A DNA stretch of 64,000 nt from Gemmiger formicilis. GTDB lineage: Bacteria > Bacillota > Clostridia > Oscillospirales > Ruminococcaceae. Position numbers and translations under genes: made by a program. Below are positions 1,994 through 7,518 of this stretch, one piece after another. The stretch spans positions 1 through 64,000 of the forward strand of contig NZ_JACJJP010000014.1 in the NCBI RefSeq assembly GCF_016900095.1. Direction: 5' to 3'. Position 1 is the first letter of the stretch, and each line of letters begins with the position of its first letter. The notes under the pieces were generated by a model. The model was not told the DNA's origin, made no database searches, and saw nothing but the letters and a program-made list of their open reading frames with translations.

Positions 1994-2500
1994 ATGTATA
2001 ACGTTGGGGATATTATCGTGTACGGGGAACATGGTGTCTGCAAGGTGGCGGCAGTGGGGCCGCTCCAGTTGGGAGGCCCGGGGGGCCGCCTGTACTATAC
2101 GCTGCGGCCGTATTACCATCCGGAACTTGTGATCTATGCCCCCATTGACAATGACCGGGTGGTGGTTCGTCCGCCGATCACCCGGGAACAAGCCCAACAG
2201 ATTGTAAGTGAATTGCCTCAGGTTCCGGAACTGGAAATTCCGGAGGAAAAGGGACGGGAAACATTGTTTTCCCAGGTTCAGCACACCTGTGATTGCCGGG
2301 CACTGGCAGGCCTGCTGAAGGCATTGTACCATCGCCGCGCCCAGCGCCAGAAAAAAGGGCGGCGGGCCACCAGTGTGGACGAACGATACTTCCATGCCGC
2401 CGAAGATCAGTTGTATGGGGAACTGGCTTATGCGCTGGGAATGAACCGGGAGGAAACGCCGGATTACATCCGTGCCTGTTTGGGGCAAACGGACGCATAA
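1994..2500 (+). CDS. CarD family transcriptional regulator
   Basis: A 168-residue protein opening with MYNVGDIIVYGEHGVCKV, the hallmark start of the CarD/CdnL/TRCF RNA-polymerase-interaction domain, a Tudor-like fold that binds the beta subunit (about residues 1-60). The rest (about 65-168) is helical and should form the CarD DNA-contacting domain, with a basic patch RRAQRQKKGRR. CarD/CdnL proteins stabilise open promoter complexes. A GTG codon at 1970 is also in frame, but the ATG at 1994 places the CarD core exactly at the N terminus. It is monocistronic, with its own promoter and a downstream hairpin terminator. Confidence 0.85.
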   Translation: MYNVGDIIVYGEHGVCKVAAVGPLQLGGPGGRLYYTLRPYYHPELVIYAPIDNDRVVVRPPITREQAQQIVSELPQVPELEIPEEKGRETLFSQVQHTCDCRALAGLLKALYHRRAQRQKKGRRATSVDERYFHAAEDQLYGELAYALGMNREETPDYIRACLGQTDA

Positions 2501-2509
2501 ATTTCAGGT

Positions 2510-2546
2510 CGGGCACAGCGTCTGCTGGCCCGGCCGTTTTGCTTTT
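2510..2546 (+). terminator. Intrinsic terminator of the CarD-like gene
   Basis: Stem CGGGC/GCCCG enclosing a second stem CAGC/GCTG with a GTCT loop, followed by GCCGTTTTGCTTTTT. Confidence 0.7.
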
Positions 2547-2656
2547 TGGGGATACTTGCAGCGTATTTGTGCGCATAGCGGCCCAAACTGAAAAAGAGAG
2601 GCAGAATCAGGCCGGAAAAGCGCCCGAAAATGCTTGCTGGCAACCGGCATCAGCCA

Positions 2657-2685
2657 TTGCTTTTATCTTTTGATGGGTGTACAAT
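2657..2685 (+). promoter_or_regulatory. Promoter of the thiol-ligase-like operon
   Basis: TTGCTT (2657-2662), 17-bp spacer, TACAAT (2680-2685). The transcript would carry a leader of about 60 nt containing a perfect 7-bp hairpin at 2708-2725 (GCGGAAG, ACAA loop, CTTCCGC) ahead of the GGAGGG ribosome binding site. Confidence 0.6.
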
Positions 2686-2753
2686 ACCTATGTGTATGCC
2701 GTAGGGAGCGGAAGACAACTTCCGCCGGGTATGCATGGAAACAGGAGGGTATT

Positions 2754-3992
2754 TTGGCAAACCTGAGAAGACAAAAAGAAGCCCTGGTCAACTATTTTCT
2801 GGCGGGATGCAAGACCGACGGAAGGATGACAGTGGGGCTGGAAGTTGAGCATTTTATTACCCAGGCTGACGGAACTCCGGTCAGCTTTGAGCAGATTCAG
2901 CAGGTCATGCAAACCCTGCAGCAAAGCGGGGATGTGCCTGTGGTGATGGAAGGGGAGTATGTAGGCTTCTACAATGATGCCTATGCGCTTTCGTTGGAAC
3001 CGGCCTGCCAGCTGGAAATCAGTATCCTTCCCCAGCCAAGTGTCAGCCGTCTGATGGCGGTATATGAGGGGTTTGCCGCACGGTTGCACCGGGCTTTGTC
3101 CAAGCTTGGCATGCGCGGCTACAACCTTGGGTACCATCCCACACGGCGTGCATCGGCGCTGCCTCTGATTCCGAAAAAGCGGTACGAGGTCATGGACCGC
3201 TATTTTCAAAAGCGCGGACACCATGGTATGCAGATGATGCGTGCCACTGCCTCCACCCAGGTATCGGTGGATTATTTCAGTGAGCAGGACTTTGTCCGCA
3301 AATACCGTGTGGCCTGCCTGATCGCGCCCCTTCTGGCACTGCTGACGGACAACGCGCCGGTGTATGAGGGAGAACCCAATCATACCTACAGTGTGCGGAC
3401 TTCCATCTGGAATGATGTGGATCCGGACCGCTGCGGGATTCCACCCATCCTGATGGATGAGGATTTCGGCTTTGAAAAATACGCCGATTATATCTTGCAG
3501 AAACCGCTGGTGGTGTCCCGCCGCGGCCCCCGCACCGAAGGTGTGGGCCGCAAGTCGGCCTTTGAAGTCTATCCCTCTTCCATGGGCCGGGAGGAGATCG
3601 AGCATGTGCTGTCCATGTTCTTCTTCGACGTAAGACTGAAAAGCTATATCGAACTCCGTGTGGCCGACAGCATGCCGGCGGCCTATGTGGCCGGTTATGC
3701 CGAATTGGTCAAGGCTGTTTTGTCCAGCCCGGCGGCGCAGGACGGGATTCTGCGCCATTATGCAGGTGTGACGGTGGCGGATATTGAGGCAGCCAAGGTG
3801 GGAATCTGCTGCAACGGATACAAGGCACAAGTGTACGGGCGTCCGGTGGCCGATGAGGTCGCCTGGCTGATGGCCCAGGCCAAAAGCCGGGTGACCACGC
3901 CGGATGCCCGACGCAATCTGGAGCCGCTGGCTGCCCTGGCCGCACAGAAAAAGACCATCCGGGAAACGGTGACTGACTATGAATCACTTTAA
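2754..3992 (+). CDS. Glutamate-cysteine ligase-like enzyme (GCS2 superfamily)
   Basis: A 412-residue protein of the ATP-dependent carboxylate-amine ligase / GCS2 superfamily, which joins the gamma-carboxyl of glutamate to cysteine or another amine. The N terminus has TVGLEVEHF (about residues 26-34), matching the conserved acidic metal/ATP-binding strand of GCS2 enzymes, and CQLEIS near residue 87 matches a second acidic strand. The start is the TTG at 2754, eight bases after GGAGGG; upstream in-frame ATG codons would read through the promoter and leader. It overlaps the next gene by 14 nt, so the two products are probably made together. The substrate is unproven: cysteine is the family default, but other amines are possible. 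Confidence 0.8.
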   Translation: MANLRRQKEALVNYFLAGCKTDGRMTVGLEVEHFITQADGTPVSFEQIQQVMQTLQQSGDVPVVMEGEYVGFYNDAYALSLEPACQLEISILPQPSVSRLMAVYEGFAARLHRALSKLGMRGYNLGYHPTRRASALPLIPKKRYEVMDRYFQKRGHHGMQMMRATASTQVSVDYFSEQDFVRKYRVACLIAPLLALLTDNAPVYEGEPNHTYSVRTSIWNDVDPDRCGIPPILMDEDFGFEKYADYILQKPLVVSRRGPRTEGVGRKSAFEVYPSSMGREEIEHVLSMFFFDVRLKSYIELRVADSMPAAYVAGYAELVKAVLSSPAAQDGILRHYAGVTVADIEAAKVGICCNGYKAQVYGRPVADEVAWLMAQAKSRVTTPDARRNLEPLAALAAQKKTIRETVTDYESL

Positions 3993-5310
3993 CAACGCCT
4001 TGGCACTGGATGCCGAGTATCTTGCCATGGCCCGCCGGGATCCGGCGGCGCTGCGGCGGGACTTTGACGCCATTGTCGAATATATGAAACACTCCACCGC
4101 CATTCACCACGGGGAGTATGTCCGCACCTGCTTCAAGCCGAAACTGCTGACCGAATCCCAGTTTGCGGCCATCAAGGCAGATATGAAAATTCTGTACTCC
4201 ATCTTTGCACGGGTGATGGATGAGTATGAACAGGACGCATCCTATCGGGCTCTGTTCGGTTTTGATTCCCGGGTGGAAGAGCTGATTCTGCGGGCCAACC
4301 GGCAGCCTTCCTTGCTGCCCATGGCGCGTATCGACTTCTTTTACAACGAGGAGACGGGGGACTACACCTTCTGTGAATTCAATACCGATGGCGCCAGCGC
4401 CATGAACGAAGACCGTGAACTGCACAATGCCCAGCAGCTGTCGGCGGTGTACCGGGAATTTACCGCTGCCCACAAAACCCGCCGCTGCGAATTGTTTGAC
4501 AGCTGGGTCGAAACCATGAAGCGGATCTGGCAGCGCGCCGGCGGATACGGGGTTCCCCGTGTGGCCATCGTGGACTATATGGAATGCGGCACGGTCAATG
4601 AGTTCGAAATCTTCCGGCAGCATTTCGAGCAGGCGGGTATCCCGGCGGAAGTCTGCGATGTGCGGGCTCTGCGGTATGACGGCCATAGGCTGACCGGCGA
4701 TTCCGGAGAAAAGATTGATATGATCTACCGCCGGGCGGTAACCAGCGATGTGCTGGCTCATTATGAGGAGAGTACCGCCCTGCTGCAGGCGGCCCGGGAC
4801 GGTGCCGTGCTTCTGGTGGGGGACTTCCACACCCAGATTGTGCACAACAAGGAACTGTTCCGCGTGCTGCATCTTCCGCGCACCTTGCAGATGTTGGATG
4901 AAACACAGCGTGCCTATATAGAGGCCCATGTGCCCTATACGGCGGAATTCGGCGCAGAGCATCTGGAGCAGGTGCTGGAAGATAAAGACCGCTGGATTCT
5001 CAAGCCCACCGATTCCTACGGATCCCGCGGTGTGTATGCGGGAGTGGAGTACGATACCGACCGGTGGGCCGAAATCGTGCGCAGCGTACCCCATACCGGA
5101 TATCTGCTGCAGGCATTCCACACGCCTTATGTGACCGAAAACTACGGTCTCAACGGGGATGTGTTCGGGTTGAACCGGTACTATAATCTGACCGGTATCT
5201 ATACCTATGACGGTGTGGCCCAGGGGGTCTATTCCCGGGTATCCTTGACCCCCATCATCTCTTCTCAGTACAGCGAAAAAACTTTGCCCACCCTGTTGGT
5301 GGAAGACTGA
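3979..5310 (+). CDS. ATP-grasp ligase, glutathionylspermidine-synthase-like
   Basis: A 443-residue protein resembling the preATP-grasp and ATP-grasp halves of the glutathionylspermidine synthase family. Visible blocks: ARIDFFYNEETGDYTFCEFNTDGASAM-type acidic strand near residues 116-140 (compare the family's E-x-N-x-D motif), RWILKPTDSYGSRGV (about 338-352) resembling the ATP-grasp lysine and glycine-rich loop, and a C-terminal YDGVAQGVYSRVSLTPIIS segment. No amidase domain is fused, unlike E. coli Gsp. The start overlaps the ligase gene upstream. It would plausibly add a residue to a gamma-glutamyl product made by that neighbour, making it a functional analogue of glutathione synthetase. This is inference from context. 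Confidence 0.75.
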   Translation: MNHFNNALALDAEYLAMARRDPAALRRDFDAIVEYMKHSTAIHHGEYVRTCFKPKLLTESQFAAIKADMKILYSIFARVMDEYEQDASYRALFGFDSRVEELILRANRQPSLLPMARIDFFYNEETGDYTFCEFNTDGASAMNEDRELHNAQQLSAVYREFTAAHKTRRCELFDSWVETMKRIWQRAGGYGVPRVAIVDYMECGTVNEFEIFRQHFEQAGIPAEVCDVRALRYDGHRLTGDSGEKIDMIYRRAVTSDVLAHYEESTALLQAARDGAVLLVGDFHTQIVHNKELFRVLHLPRTLQMLDETQRAYIEAHVPYTAEFGAEHLEQVLEDKDRWILKPTDSYGSRGVYAGVEYDTDRWAEIVRSVPHTGYLLQAFHTPYVTENYGLNGDVFGLNRYYNLTGIYTYDGVAQGVYSRVSLTPIISSQYSEKTLPTLLVED

Positions 5311-5381
5311 ATGAATGAGGGACGGCTTTTCTGCGGATACTAGCCCAAAGAACCGTTTGAAACGGGAAAGGGGCGCAGTCC

Positions 5382-5903
5382 ATGCGGGAATCATCTTACC
5401 ATGCCATATTGACCGAGATGACCGTGCGCGCTTTGTGGGAAACCCAGAATGTCATCGATTGTATTCCGGATGATCTGTGGGACAAACCCTATGGCGGAGC
5501 ACCGTTATGGCAGCATATCTATCACATGCTGCACGGGCTGGACCAGTGGTTCATCAATCCCCGCGACCGAGATTTTGTGGAACCGCCCATCCATACGCCG
5601 CTTTTGCAGGACCTGGCCATCTATCCGGCCACCCGGCTGAGCCGGCGGCAGATCAACGATTATTTCCATACCATCAAGGCCAAACTTTCGCTATACCTGC
5701 CCGCCCTGCATGATGAGGATCTCTTGCAGCGTCCGGAAGGCTGCGAATGGACCCGCATGACCCTGATTCTGGCCCAATACCGGCACCTGCATCTGCATCT
5801 GGGGATGCTGATGGGATTTGTTCAGGCCGCTACAGGGCTGTGCCCGCGGGTGCTGGATCTGGGTACCGAGATTCCCCTGGGCCCCTATGACCCTTATGAA
5901 TGA
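5382..5903 (+). CDS. DinB-fold protein, possible thiol-dependent transferase
   Basis: A 173-residue four-helix-bundle protein of the DinB/YfiT superfamily. Helix 2 carries W43-x-H45-I-Y-H48-M-L-H51 and helix 4 carries H135-L-H137-L-H139, supplying an H...HxxxH metal triad. Members of this superfamily include bacillithiol- and mycothiol-dependent S-transferases and maleylpyruvate isomerases. That makes its position behind a glutamate-cysteine-ligase-like gene and an ATP-grasp ligase suggestive: it may use the thiol made by its neighbours. The start at 5382 follows a GGAAAGGGG stretch. The stop codon lies 14 nt before the next start. The enzymatic role is inference; the fold assignment is fairly firm. 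Confidence 0.75.
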   Translation: MRESSYHAILTEMTVRALWETQNVIDCIPDDLWDKPYGGAPLWQHIYHMLHGLDQWFINPRDRDFVEPPIHTPLLQDLAIYPATRLSRRQINDYFHTIKAKLSLYLPALHDEDLLQRPEGCEWTRMTLILAQYRHLHLHLGMLMGFVQAATGLCPRVLDLGTEIPLGPYDPYE

Positions 5904-5917
5904 AAGGAAGTTGCCCC

Positions 5918-6379
5918 ATGAAACACTGGCTTCAGCTGACAGTGCTGCTGTTGGTTCTGGCGGTGCTGGTCTCCTGCGCTAAGGCGGAGGAAACACCGGC
6001 ATGGCAGGGGACTCTGCCCAACAGCGGCGTGGTGATGACGGTGTCCGGTGGGGAAGTGGCCGAGTCGGAAACGTTCTGGTGTCCGGACAACCGGCGCCAC
6101 TGGCAGGAAACCTGTCTGCTGACCGCACCGCATTCGGTGACGCTGACCTGGCAGGGTGTTTTTCCTGAGCAGGTGAGCATCGCTTTTGCCAATCCGGACA
6201 GGGACGGCTTTGTGCCGGAGACTGATTCGGATCTGATCGAAAAGGTGGATTATACGCCTCGTGTCACGGCGGACGGCGCCCTGCAATACCGGATCGATAC
6301 AGCTTATTGCTTTATCATCACGGTGAGCACCGAGCGGGGAACCGACTTTTTCCTGTTGGATTGTCGGCGAGAAATCTGA
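5918..6379 (+). CDS. Small predicted lipoprotein of unknown function
   Basis: A 153-residue protein with a classic lipoprotein signal: hydrophobic core from residues 5 to 18 and a lipobox LVSC with the acylated cysteine at residue 20. The mature part contains three further cysteines, which could form one disulfide, and looks beta-rich. I do not recognise a family. It is the last gene of the thiol-ligase-like operon, 14 nt after the DinB-like gene. The start at 5918 has AAAGGAAG about ten bases upstream; an earlier in-frame ATG at 5900 overlaps the preceding stop and would spoil the signal peptide. Confidence 0.75.
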   Translation: MKHWLQLTVLLLVLAVLVSCAKAEETPAWQGTLPNSGVVMTVSGGEVAESETFWCPDNRRHWQETCLLTAPHSVTLTWQGVFPEQVSIAFANPDRDGFVPETDSDLIEKVDYTPRVTADGALQYRIDTAYCFIITVSTERGTDFFLLDCRREI

Positions 6380-6390
6380 ACCATACAAAA

Positions 6391-6420
6391 AACAGCCCGG
6401 CCGGTTTGGTCGGGCTGCTT
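6391..6420. terminator. Bidirectional terminator between lipoprotein gene and mscS
   Basis: Hairpin CAGCCCG (6393-6399) / CGGGCTG (6411-6417). Read on the minus strand it is followed by TTTTTTG, so it is the stronger terminator for the MscS gene; on the plus strand the tail is CTTGCTT. Confidence 0.7.
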
Positions 6421-6423
6421 GCT

Positions 6424-7518
6424 TTACGACTGGGACGTTTTTTCCAGATAGACGCTGGTGGAGGGGAAGGCGAAAGAGCAGCCTTCTTTTTCCATCAGGT
6501 CCATGATCTGCAGGTTCAGACGGTTTTTCATGGCACGAAAATCCGCCAGGCTCAGCGCGGTCACATACATGCGCACGTCGATGTCAATGCTGGAAGCACC
6601 GAAGTTGGTCAGGCAGACCTGGACGGTTTCCGGCTGGGCGGTGGGCTCTGCCTTGCAAAGTTTGGTCAGGGCCCGGCAAAGGGCTTCAATCTTTTCGCGG
6701 GAGGTGTCATAGGTGACGCCGATCACAAAATTCCACAGGCGGCTGTTGCGGTCGGTGACATTCTGGATATATTCGGCGCTGACCTTGGAGTTCTCCACGG
6801 TGATCTGGCAGTTGTCCGGTGTGCGCAGCTTGGTGGAGCGGAAGGAAATCTCCTCCACCGTGCCCTCAAAGCTGCCCAGCATGATGTAATCCCCGATGCC
6901 GAAAGGCCGTTCCATCACCAGGGTGATGCCGGCAATCAGGTTGGACAGGGTGGACTGGGCGGCCAGGGATACAGCCAGACCGGCAACGCCGGCGCCGGCC
7001 ATGAGCCCCGCTACCGGGACGCCGAAAAGCTCTAGCGTGGCCAGGATGGTAATGACAACCACCAATGCCCGGTAAATCTTTTCAAAAAAGCGGGTCATGG
7101 TTTTGTTGCTTTCCAGGTCCAGGCGATTCTGGGCGCTGCGCAGCAGCAAACCGCAGAGGTTCTCGCTGCGCCAGAAGCCCAATCCCAGCAGGAGGATGGC
7201 AACGGCACCGAACACCGGGCCTGCCAGCAAGGCGGTCTGCTGCGGTGTCAGGGGCAAAGGGAAAGCCAGCACGGCCAGATAAATCAGGAAAGCCCGCAGC
7301 AGCAACACCAGGGAACCGGAAAAGCCATCATAGAGGATGCGCAGCCACTCCGGCATAAACCGGAGCAGCCGGGCCCGGATGGTGCGGATCAGCGCCCGGT
7401 ACAACCGGGTGCCGAACACCGCTGCCAGAGCCAGGACAGCGGTGAGCAGAATGCGAAGAAGATCATTGTGGGTGTTGATAAGGCCCATGAAAAGAGTCCA
7501 GAATTCTTGAAATGCCAT
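6424..7518 (-). CDS. MscS family mechanosensitive ion channel
   Basis: A 364-residue small-conductance mechanosensitive channel. Several hydrophobic helices occupy the first ~190 residues, followed by the pore-lining signature GVAGLAVSLAAQSTLSNLIAGI and the beta-domain motif RPFGIGDYIMLGSFEGTVEEISFRST, which are the core of MscS. The C-terminal alpha/beta domain includes a conserved VGVTYDTS-type strand. The start at 7518 has GGGAG nine bases upstream; a TTG 24 nt earlier is less likely. It would release solutes during hypo-osmotic shock. It is monocistronic, with a promoter at 7591-7619 and a terminator at 6391-6420. Confidence 0.9.
   Translation of the reverse strand: MAFQEFWTLFMGLINTHNDLLRILLTAVLALAAVFGTRLYRALIRTIRARLLRFMPEWLRILYDGFSGSLVLLLRAFLIYLAVLAFPLPLTPQQTALLAGPVFGAVAILLLGLGFWRSENLCGLLLRSAQNRLDLESNKTMTRFFEKIYRALVVVITILATLELFGVPVAGLMAGAGVAGLAVSLAAQSTLSNLIAGITLVMERPFGIGDYIMLGSFEGTVEEISFRSTKLRTPDNCQITVENSKVSAEYIQNVTDRNSRLWNFVIGVTYDTSREKIEALCRALTKLCKAEPTAQPETVQVCLTNFGASSIDIDVRMYVTALSLADFRAMKNRLNLQIMDLMEKEGCSFAFPSTSVYLEKTSQS

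Follow-up and report, generated by a model that had tools for sequence, protein, structure and literature searches.

A conserved pair of ligase genes in clostridia as a candidate two-step pathway to a gamma-Glu-Cys-X peptide thiol

The small thiol of many anaerobic clostridia, if they use one at all, has long been a matter of doubt, and a four-gene locus of Gemmiger formicilis raises the question of whether such a compound could be made by enzymes outside the classical glutathione families. The window analysed here is the whole stretch of 64,000 nucleotides at positions 1 to 64,000 of contig NZ_JACJJP010000014.1; it holds, one after another, genes for a glutamate-cysteine ligase (GCL) of the GCS2 type, an ATP-grasp ligase, a DinB-fold protein and a putative lipoprotein. 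An original prediction had put the four genes forward as a candidate pathway to an undescribed thiol or gamma-glutamyl peptide, in an arrangement that would fit making a thiol and then using it. Our analysis argues for a smaller unit, in which GCS2 and ATP-grasp would constitute a two-step pathway to a gamma-Glu-Cys-X peptide thiol, a reading to which we assign a probability of about 0.72. The pair most likely makes gamma-Glu-Cys-X because GCS2 is displaced by a ligase of the GCS1 family in some genomes, because GCS2 is damaged in one clade of the genus that has lost ATP-grasp, and because no match to GshA/GshF, GshB or BshC was found in the genome.

The two genes belong together far beyond chance. 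ATP-grasp was found in 22 of the 35 genomes of the genus, in one of 148 genomes of the family draw (the window's own) and in 29 of 391 genomes of the class draw, own included; a profile search of the phylum draw gave 23 of 319 genomes, 3 of them already counted, 2 set aside and 18 new. Plasmid pSRC2 of Selenomonas brings the total to 69 records: the window's own, 21 others from the genus, 28 others from the class, 18 from the phylum and the plasmid itself. GCS2 adjoins ATP-grasp in 63 of them, namely in the window, in 20 of the genus (one cut by a contig end, L054), in 24 of the class (one fused) and in the 18 of the phylum, where gaps are at most 140 nt. On pSRC2, a MATE gene stands between the two; the five remaining non-adjacent records are G175, G297, G483, G519 and G532, with GCS2 of G297 located on a different contig. 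The ATP-grasp genomes of the class and phylum draws span 25 numbered families, 24 of which have an adjacent pair. With every open reading frame (ORF) taken to begin at the earliest start available, all 46 unfused pairs measured are on the same strand, 38 overlapping, 6 within 50 nt, one with a gap of 72 nt and one, on the plasmid, with 1751 nt; a natural fusion of 864 aa occurs in L084. Within the class draw, 43 genomes have GCS2 and 26 have both genes (Fisher, 5e-26), and the pairwise distances of GCS2 and ATP-grasp correlate with an r of 0.95 over 43 of the 46 loci and 0.90 over the 24 outside the genus, values that 0 of 2000 permutations reached.

Left out of these counts were L003, judged from its equal length and match position to be the same contig as L055, and, as longer and remote proteins, L175 and L176 (822 and 878 aa; E of ~1e-21), in whose short flanks GCS2 was not found. 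Plasmid records matching ATP-grasp numbered 28; among the 20 matches listed, the Selenomonas protein is 40% identical and the others 19 to 33%, and no GCS2 was found in two of the latter, L024 and L025. A pattern search of viral contigs returned no relative.

The four genes as a general unit were rejected: among the 54 loci examined (the 18 phylum loci were not checked), homologues of DinB or the lipoprotein adjoin ATP-grasp only within the genus. We regard the first two genes as the core. The co-occurrence in relatives on which the original prediction depended therefore holds for GCS2 and ATP-grasp and fails, beyond the genus, for DinB and the lipoprotein.

The first enzyme scores 120 bits against PF04107 (E, 1.6e-34), well past the gathering cut-off of 21, and an alignment of 32 of 47 family sequences yielded 30 invariant columns, with the active-site residues intact in the window copy; on this score and these conserved catalytic residues, it is assigned to the PF04107 superfamily. 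Plant GCL is its closest counterpart, both by the model TIGR01436 (E, 6.6e-64; 216 bits, below the equivalog cut-off of 463) and by the structures PDB 6gmo and 2gwc (E, 3e-49). The likeness extends over residues 8 to 318 and includes 29 of the 30 family-invariant residues, the exception being D292, which is Glu in the plant enzyme; the C-terminal part of the window protein is unaligned, and its gene, unlike that of plant GCL, precedes an ATP-grasp gene in an overlapping frame. The ergothioneine EgtA model TIGR03444 gave 116.9 bits, under its cut-off of 370.8, and since the protein falls below the cut-offs of both plant GCL and EgtA, its specificity for cysteine is not assured.

The second enzyme appears to be a circularly permuted ATP-grasp protein. 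Of 39 aligned family members (from 54), 33 match CP_ATPgrasp_2 and 18 match GSP_synth (E up to 0.1; best for the latter, 3e-14), and a family profile run against the PDB retrieved Cp1B (9cjn; 7.5e-6), a putative glutathionylspermidine synthase (3n6x; 4.5e-4) and trypanothione synthetase (0.019). By hhalign, E. coli Gss reached a probability of 89% (E, 2.5e-6 for a single comparison), aligning R117, D119, E133, N135, S140 and K291 of the window protein with R316, D318, E330, N332, S337 and K498, which we take to be functional residues of Gss. The Mg motif E133/N135 lies N-terminal of the ATP lysines K291/K342, all four being invariant in the 39 sequences, and P343, D345, G351 and V352 are present in at least 90% of them; judged from these columns, the order of the motifs is the one expected of a circular permutation. 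The kinship with glutathionylspermidine synthase that had been proposed is supported by Pfam matches of the relatives and by PDB profile matches, and residues for nucleotide binding are present by sequence and profile alignment. The permuted architecture and the aligned Mg and ATP residues are shared with GspS/Gss and trypanothione synthetase, whereas E. coli Gss is fused to an amidase, a domain absent among the Pfam matches of the 443-aa window enzyme, and the partner gene in the window encodes a GCL. Cp1B, the best PDB match, is an ATP-grasp enzyme of fungal E-64 synthesis described as forming a pseudodipeptide with amino acids as acceptors (PMC12568646); it differs in being fungal and in using an epoxysuccinate substrate, and the passages of that paper describing it mention no GCL partner.

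The strongest hint at the chemistry comes from genomes in which GCS2 is missing. All three ATP-grasp genomes of the class draw that lack GCS2 (G483, G519 and G532) match GCS1 (PF04262), the family of classical GshA and GshF, and a ligase of one family or the other is present in 29 of 29 ATP-grasp genomes of the draw. Among the 348 GCS2-lacking genomes of the class, GCS1 is found in 3 of 3 with ATP-grasp versus 28 of 345 others (one of these below cut-off; P, 6e-4). Matches to PF04107 and PF04262 do not coincide in any of the 391 genomes in these searches, though some GCS1 loci have a remote GCS2-like neighbour unseen by Pfam. Family f15 shows both arrangements: an ABM gene, GCS2 and ATP-grasp stand consecutively in G374 and G228, and in G519 and G483 a gene of the ABM cluster is followed by ATP-grasp at 39 and 45 nt, with GCS1 elsewhere and no GCS2 remnant; the ABM identity was checked by Pfam in G374 and G483, and G519 belongs to the same genus as the f15 pair carriers. 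GCS1 of G532 is on the same contig and strand as ATP-grasp, with one large gene between, and G483 has genes for PALP, a Cys/Met pyridoxal phosphate (PLP)-enzyme and Rrf2 nearby. If GCS1 replaces GCS2, the product shared by the two is most simply gamma-glutamylcysteine, and the displacement points to this dipeptide as the common intermediate.

Ligases of both families were also seen next to class-II glutamine amidotransferase genes (GATase_4), GCS2 in L125:3638-5612, L128:4490-6467 and L129:4702-6790 and GCS1 in L111:4617-6606. GATase_4 was assigned by resemblance in L125 and L129 and by Pfam in L128 and L111, the latter two also having Cys/Met PLP-enzyme or methionine-type ABC genes nearby. 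Such neighbours could possibly belong to a make-and-cleave gamma-glutamyl cycle. The remote GCS2-like gene stands beside GCS1 and GATase_4 in L104:2213-5712, L109:2703-6004 and L110:1775-5325; in L104 it is unrecognised by Pfam, GATase_4 was identified by Pfam there and by resemblance in L109 and L110, and in L110 both ligases form one frame of 887 aa.

The converse case, GCS2 without ATP-grasp, is seen within the genus. G154, G160 and G161 have no ATP-grasp match; their GCS2 stands directly 5' of DinB, 45 nt away, and 5, 7 and 7 of its 30 invariant residues, respectively, are changed. E82G and Y144D, and at E88 a change to R or C, are common to the three. In G155, where the contig ends at the GCS2 stop, none of the 30 positions is changed. 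The three altered frames remain open for 410 codons with no stops, and their dN/dS is 0.13 to 0.19 versus 0.02 to 0.06 in active pairs, a rough comparison (NG86) with dS near 1. Apparently, GCS2 of these genomes has been kept as a protein devoid of catalytic activity and is not an ORF in decay; the likely pseudoenzymes are found beside DinB at L121:5032-6264, L123:4836-6068 and L124:4812-6044. In most of the cases observed, loss of one gene of the pair goes with loss, replacement or damage of the other. In two other genomes, both of one genus, GCS2 overlaps a RadA-like gene, so named from its first residues (L120:4701-7347 and L127:4581-7275), and in one of them ATP-grasp is on a separate contig.

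The window's own assembly, 99.45% complete, has no match to PF04262 (GshA/GshF type), PF02955 (GshB) or BshC (PF10079), BshA and BshB not having been searched; within this range, the earlier statement that neither GshF nor a bacillithiol set is present holds for the whole assembly. None of the 50 ATP-grasp genomes matches BshC, and PF02955 (E up to 0.001) has matches in 9 of the 50, above its cut-off in 2; in G364, the match (below cut-off) falls inside the ATP-grasp gene itself. The following route would be consistent with these observations: GCS2, as its family and conserved catalytic residues suggest, would use ATP to link cysteine to the gamma-carboxyl of glutamate, yielding gamma-glutamylcysteine, and ATP-grasp, by the chemistry of its superfamily, would phosphorylate the free cysteine carboxyl and join it to an amino group, giving gamma-Glu-Cys-X. 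The two-step logic, a GCL followed by an ATP-grasp enzyme, is that of GshA plus GshB or of the fused GshF, and L084 offers one fused version of the present pair; both window enzymes nevertheless come from other families, and as PF02955 and PF04262 did not match, the pair is not a member of the GshB/GshF families. Such a cassette would account for how a thiol is made where the genome has no GshAB, GshF or BshC match and, being conserved, gives a testable answer to the question of the clostridial thiol for part of the anaerobic clostridia. A 2009 survey of amidoligase gene neighbourhoods by Iyer et al. reportedly may mention related pairs. No published work on this gene pair was found among the matches listed, most subscription journals being outside the scope. 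For Clostridium acetobutylicum, reviews disagree, at least in the passages concerned: it is counted among glutathione users in PMC4360819 and described as given glutathione synthesis by engineering in PMC5483285 and PMC3462692, one of which names E. coli gshAB.

What X might be can be weighed from the same data. The likeliest single X would be glycine, i.e., glutathione, the alternative being another amino acid or an amine. Plain glutathione as the product, with no new metabolite and with ATP-grasp, whose family is not known to include glutathione synthetases, acting as a non-orthologous synthetase, comes in our estimate close to an even chance while falling slightly short of it. The plant-type first step, the replacement of GCS2 by GCS1 in 3 of 3 exceptions, the absence of a GshB or GshF match from the genome and a gene order parallel to GshA then GshB all agree with glutathione, as does, very weakly, the NCBIfam glutathione synthetase NF009110 (E, 0.088; 11.8 bits, far under the cut-off of 408). 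The window ATP-grasp, however, has no PF02955 match at E up to 1 and only 7 of its 39 relatives match weakly (best, 3.6e-4), eukaryotic glutathione synthetase is not among the 6 PDB profile matches up to E of 10, and the characterised kin use amines, as GspS and trypanothione synthetase do, or, in the case of Cp1B, amino acids that are not glycine. An X other than glycine, such as a polyamine or other amine, would make gamma-Glu-Cys-X of about two dozen clostridial families and of the Selenomonas plasmid an undescribed low-molecular-weight thiol, built by a plant-type GCL and a GspS-like ligase that works without glutathione; this reading as a whole we consider rather unlikely. The undescribed thiol of the original prediction is not shown, plain glutathione being a possible product. 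A glycine acceptor would add a further glutathione synthetase family, any other a new thiol.

The specific case of an amine acceptor, with ATP-grasp coupling gamma-Glu-Cys to a polyamine or another amine to form a relative of glutathionylspermidine that lacks glycine, is improbable in our view. It draws on the GSP_synth matches of the relatives, on trypanothione synthetase and the putative glutathionylspermidine synthase in the PDB profile search and on the alignment of D119, E133, N135 and K291 with Gss, along with the annotation of YgiC and YjfC, which we take to be of the same superfamily, as peptide-spermidine ligases. GSP_synth does not match the window copy itself at E up to 1, the amidase domain of the E. 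coli enzyme is absent from that copy, and Gss E391/E392, presumably residues of the spermidine side, align with G204/T205. Amino acids are, moreover, the acceptors of the best PDB match, Cp1B, in the account given in PMC12568646. Still less probable is a role of the two ligases outside thiol chemistry, on a gamma-glutamyl substrate that is not a thiol: GCS2 does miss the curated cut-offs for both plant GCL and EgtA, but it shares all but one of its invariant residues with plant GCL, and it is replaced by GCS1 in each of the 3 exceptions, one of which, G483, has PALP, Cys/Met PLP-enzyme and Rrf2 genes nearby.

Several observations weigh against the two-step gamma-Glu-Cys-X pathway itself. G154, G160 and G161 form one clade nested among pair-bearing species, i.e., their GCS2 damage is a single event. 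Of the 43 GCS2 genomes of the class draw, 17 have no ATP-grasp match; 12 of these match GCS2 weakly (five of the 12 were opened and had no ATP-grasp), and the other five (G210, G243, G296, G342 and G528) have a strong GCS2, with 0 or 1 of 30 residues changed in the four examined. As an intact, strong GCS2 occurs there without ATP-grasp, gamma-Glu-Cys may be the end product in some GCS2-only genomes. G175, 87% complete, has ATP-grasp and no GCS2 was found in it. The window ATP-grasp lies below every Pfam cut-off (best, CP_ATPgrasp_2, PF14403; E, 1.4e-4; 21.3 bits against a gathering cut-off of 32), its alignment with YgiC is poor (probability, 19%), its predicted model has a mean predicted local distance difference test (pLDDT) score of 35, too poor for use, and no amine-binding residue was identified in it.

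DinB and the lipoprotein are best described as probable additions to the pair, seen beside it in this genus. The DinB fold with an H...HxxxH triad proposed earlier is borne out by a DinB_2 match (PF12867; E, 6e-6; 27.1 bits against a cut-off of 24.8) and by the metal histidines H48, H135 and H139. A predicted model (mean pLDDT, 69; predicted template modeling score, 0.68) gave DinB-fold or DinB-containing proteins as top Foldseek matches, all with E above 0.001 and with unrelated proteins lower; OvsA and EgtB, among the top matches, are presumably DinB-containing enzymes. Fold and histidines resemble those of the DinB-fold thiol transferases BstA and mycothiol S-transferase, from which the window protein differs in sequence (13 to 15% identity) and in the lack of a BshC match in its genome. 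The lipoprotein has nothing above a Pfam cut-off and is 25 to 48% identical within the genus, where it stands beside the pair in 19 of 22 ATP-grasp genomes.

A single system of all four genes that makes a thiol and then uses it, DinB being the transferase of the product, is unlikely on the present comparison, in which the histidines give a mixed picture. Within the genus, DinB is beside the pair in 20 of the 22 genomes with ATP-grasp, a contig end cutting one of the 20, and 23 of the 26 DinB genomes among the 35 also have GCS2 (Fisher, 5e-4). In the other three, G054, G153 and G178 (98, 82 and 86% complete), which have no GCS2 or ATP-grasp match, both H135 and H139 are replaced, while the histidines are kept in the 22 complete DinBs from GCS2 genomes (G158 is cut). 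These three losses nonetheless belong to one clade, and two of its genomes are the less complete ones; G154, G160 and G161 keep the triad despite an apparently dead GCS2 and a missing ATP-grasp; the triad is likewise intact in 8 of 8 relatives examined in other genera, with no ATP-grasp of this kind (G045 and G131, broken or partial, are left out of the count); and G173 has the pair with DinB absent. Because of this mixed evidence, DinB is left as a possible accessory to the pair. The copies lacking H135/H139 (L143:7098-7595, L144:4513-5031 and L145:7160-7678) are at loci other than the window's.

As had been predicted, the four ORFs follow one another head to tail, and the first two overlap by 14 nt; all are on the + strand (Table 1). 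The GCS2 start is most likely TTG at 2754, behind AGGAGGG, rather than 2657. Transcription from one promoter, also part of the original prediction, is not shown and remains an inference, since no sigma-70-like site was found on the + strand in 2400-6600; the two sites in that region are on the - strand and in no excess over shuffles. Terminator-like sites numbered 7 in the scanned region versus 3.8 (standard deviation, 2.2) in shuffles.

Table 1. Features of the four-gene locus in window coordinates
Feature	Position	Strand	Basis
GCS2-type glutamate-cysteine ligase of 412 aa, plant GCL as nearest counterpart	2754..3992	+	Pfam, NCBIfam and PDB profile matches
Circularly permuted ATP-grasp ligase, 443 aa, kin of glutathionylspermidine synthetase (GSP_synth)	3979..5310	+	family profile matches
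Reading-frame overlap of GCS2 and ATP-grasp, 14 nt	3979..3992	+	ORF coordinates
ATP-grasp Mg-site stretch, R117-x-D119 ... E133-x-N135-x-D137-G-x-S140	4327..4410	+	invariant columns, 39 sequences
ATP-grasp nucleotide-binding strand and loop, K342-P-x-D-S-Y-G-S-R-G-V352	5002..5034	+	conserved columns, 39 sequences
DinB-fold protein, 173 aa, H48 and H135xxxH139	5382..5903	+	DinB_2 match, predicted model
Putative lipoprotein, 159 aa, no family	5900..6379	+	lipobox ...LVSC in translation
Terminator-like hairpin 3' of the lipoprotein gene, 11-pair stem	6393..6417	+	sequence scan

A link of the pair to transport was considered and rejected: MATE genes (L023 and L083), a cation efflux gene (L089) and ABC genes stand beside some pairs, with no general type. 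The cation efflux cluster of L089 recurs in L090, L094 and L096. In L079, a BMP-family lipoprotein gene and ABC transporter genes are located 3' of the pair, and in L119:2218-5966 such genes are 3' of a GCS2 gene without ATP-grasp; a member of the same BMP-lipoprotein cluster is found downstream in L023:12807-13991, the names there being taken from the annotation of L023 and from first residues.

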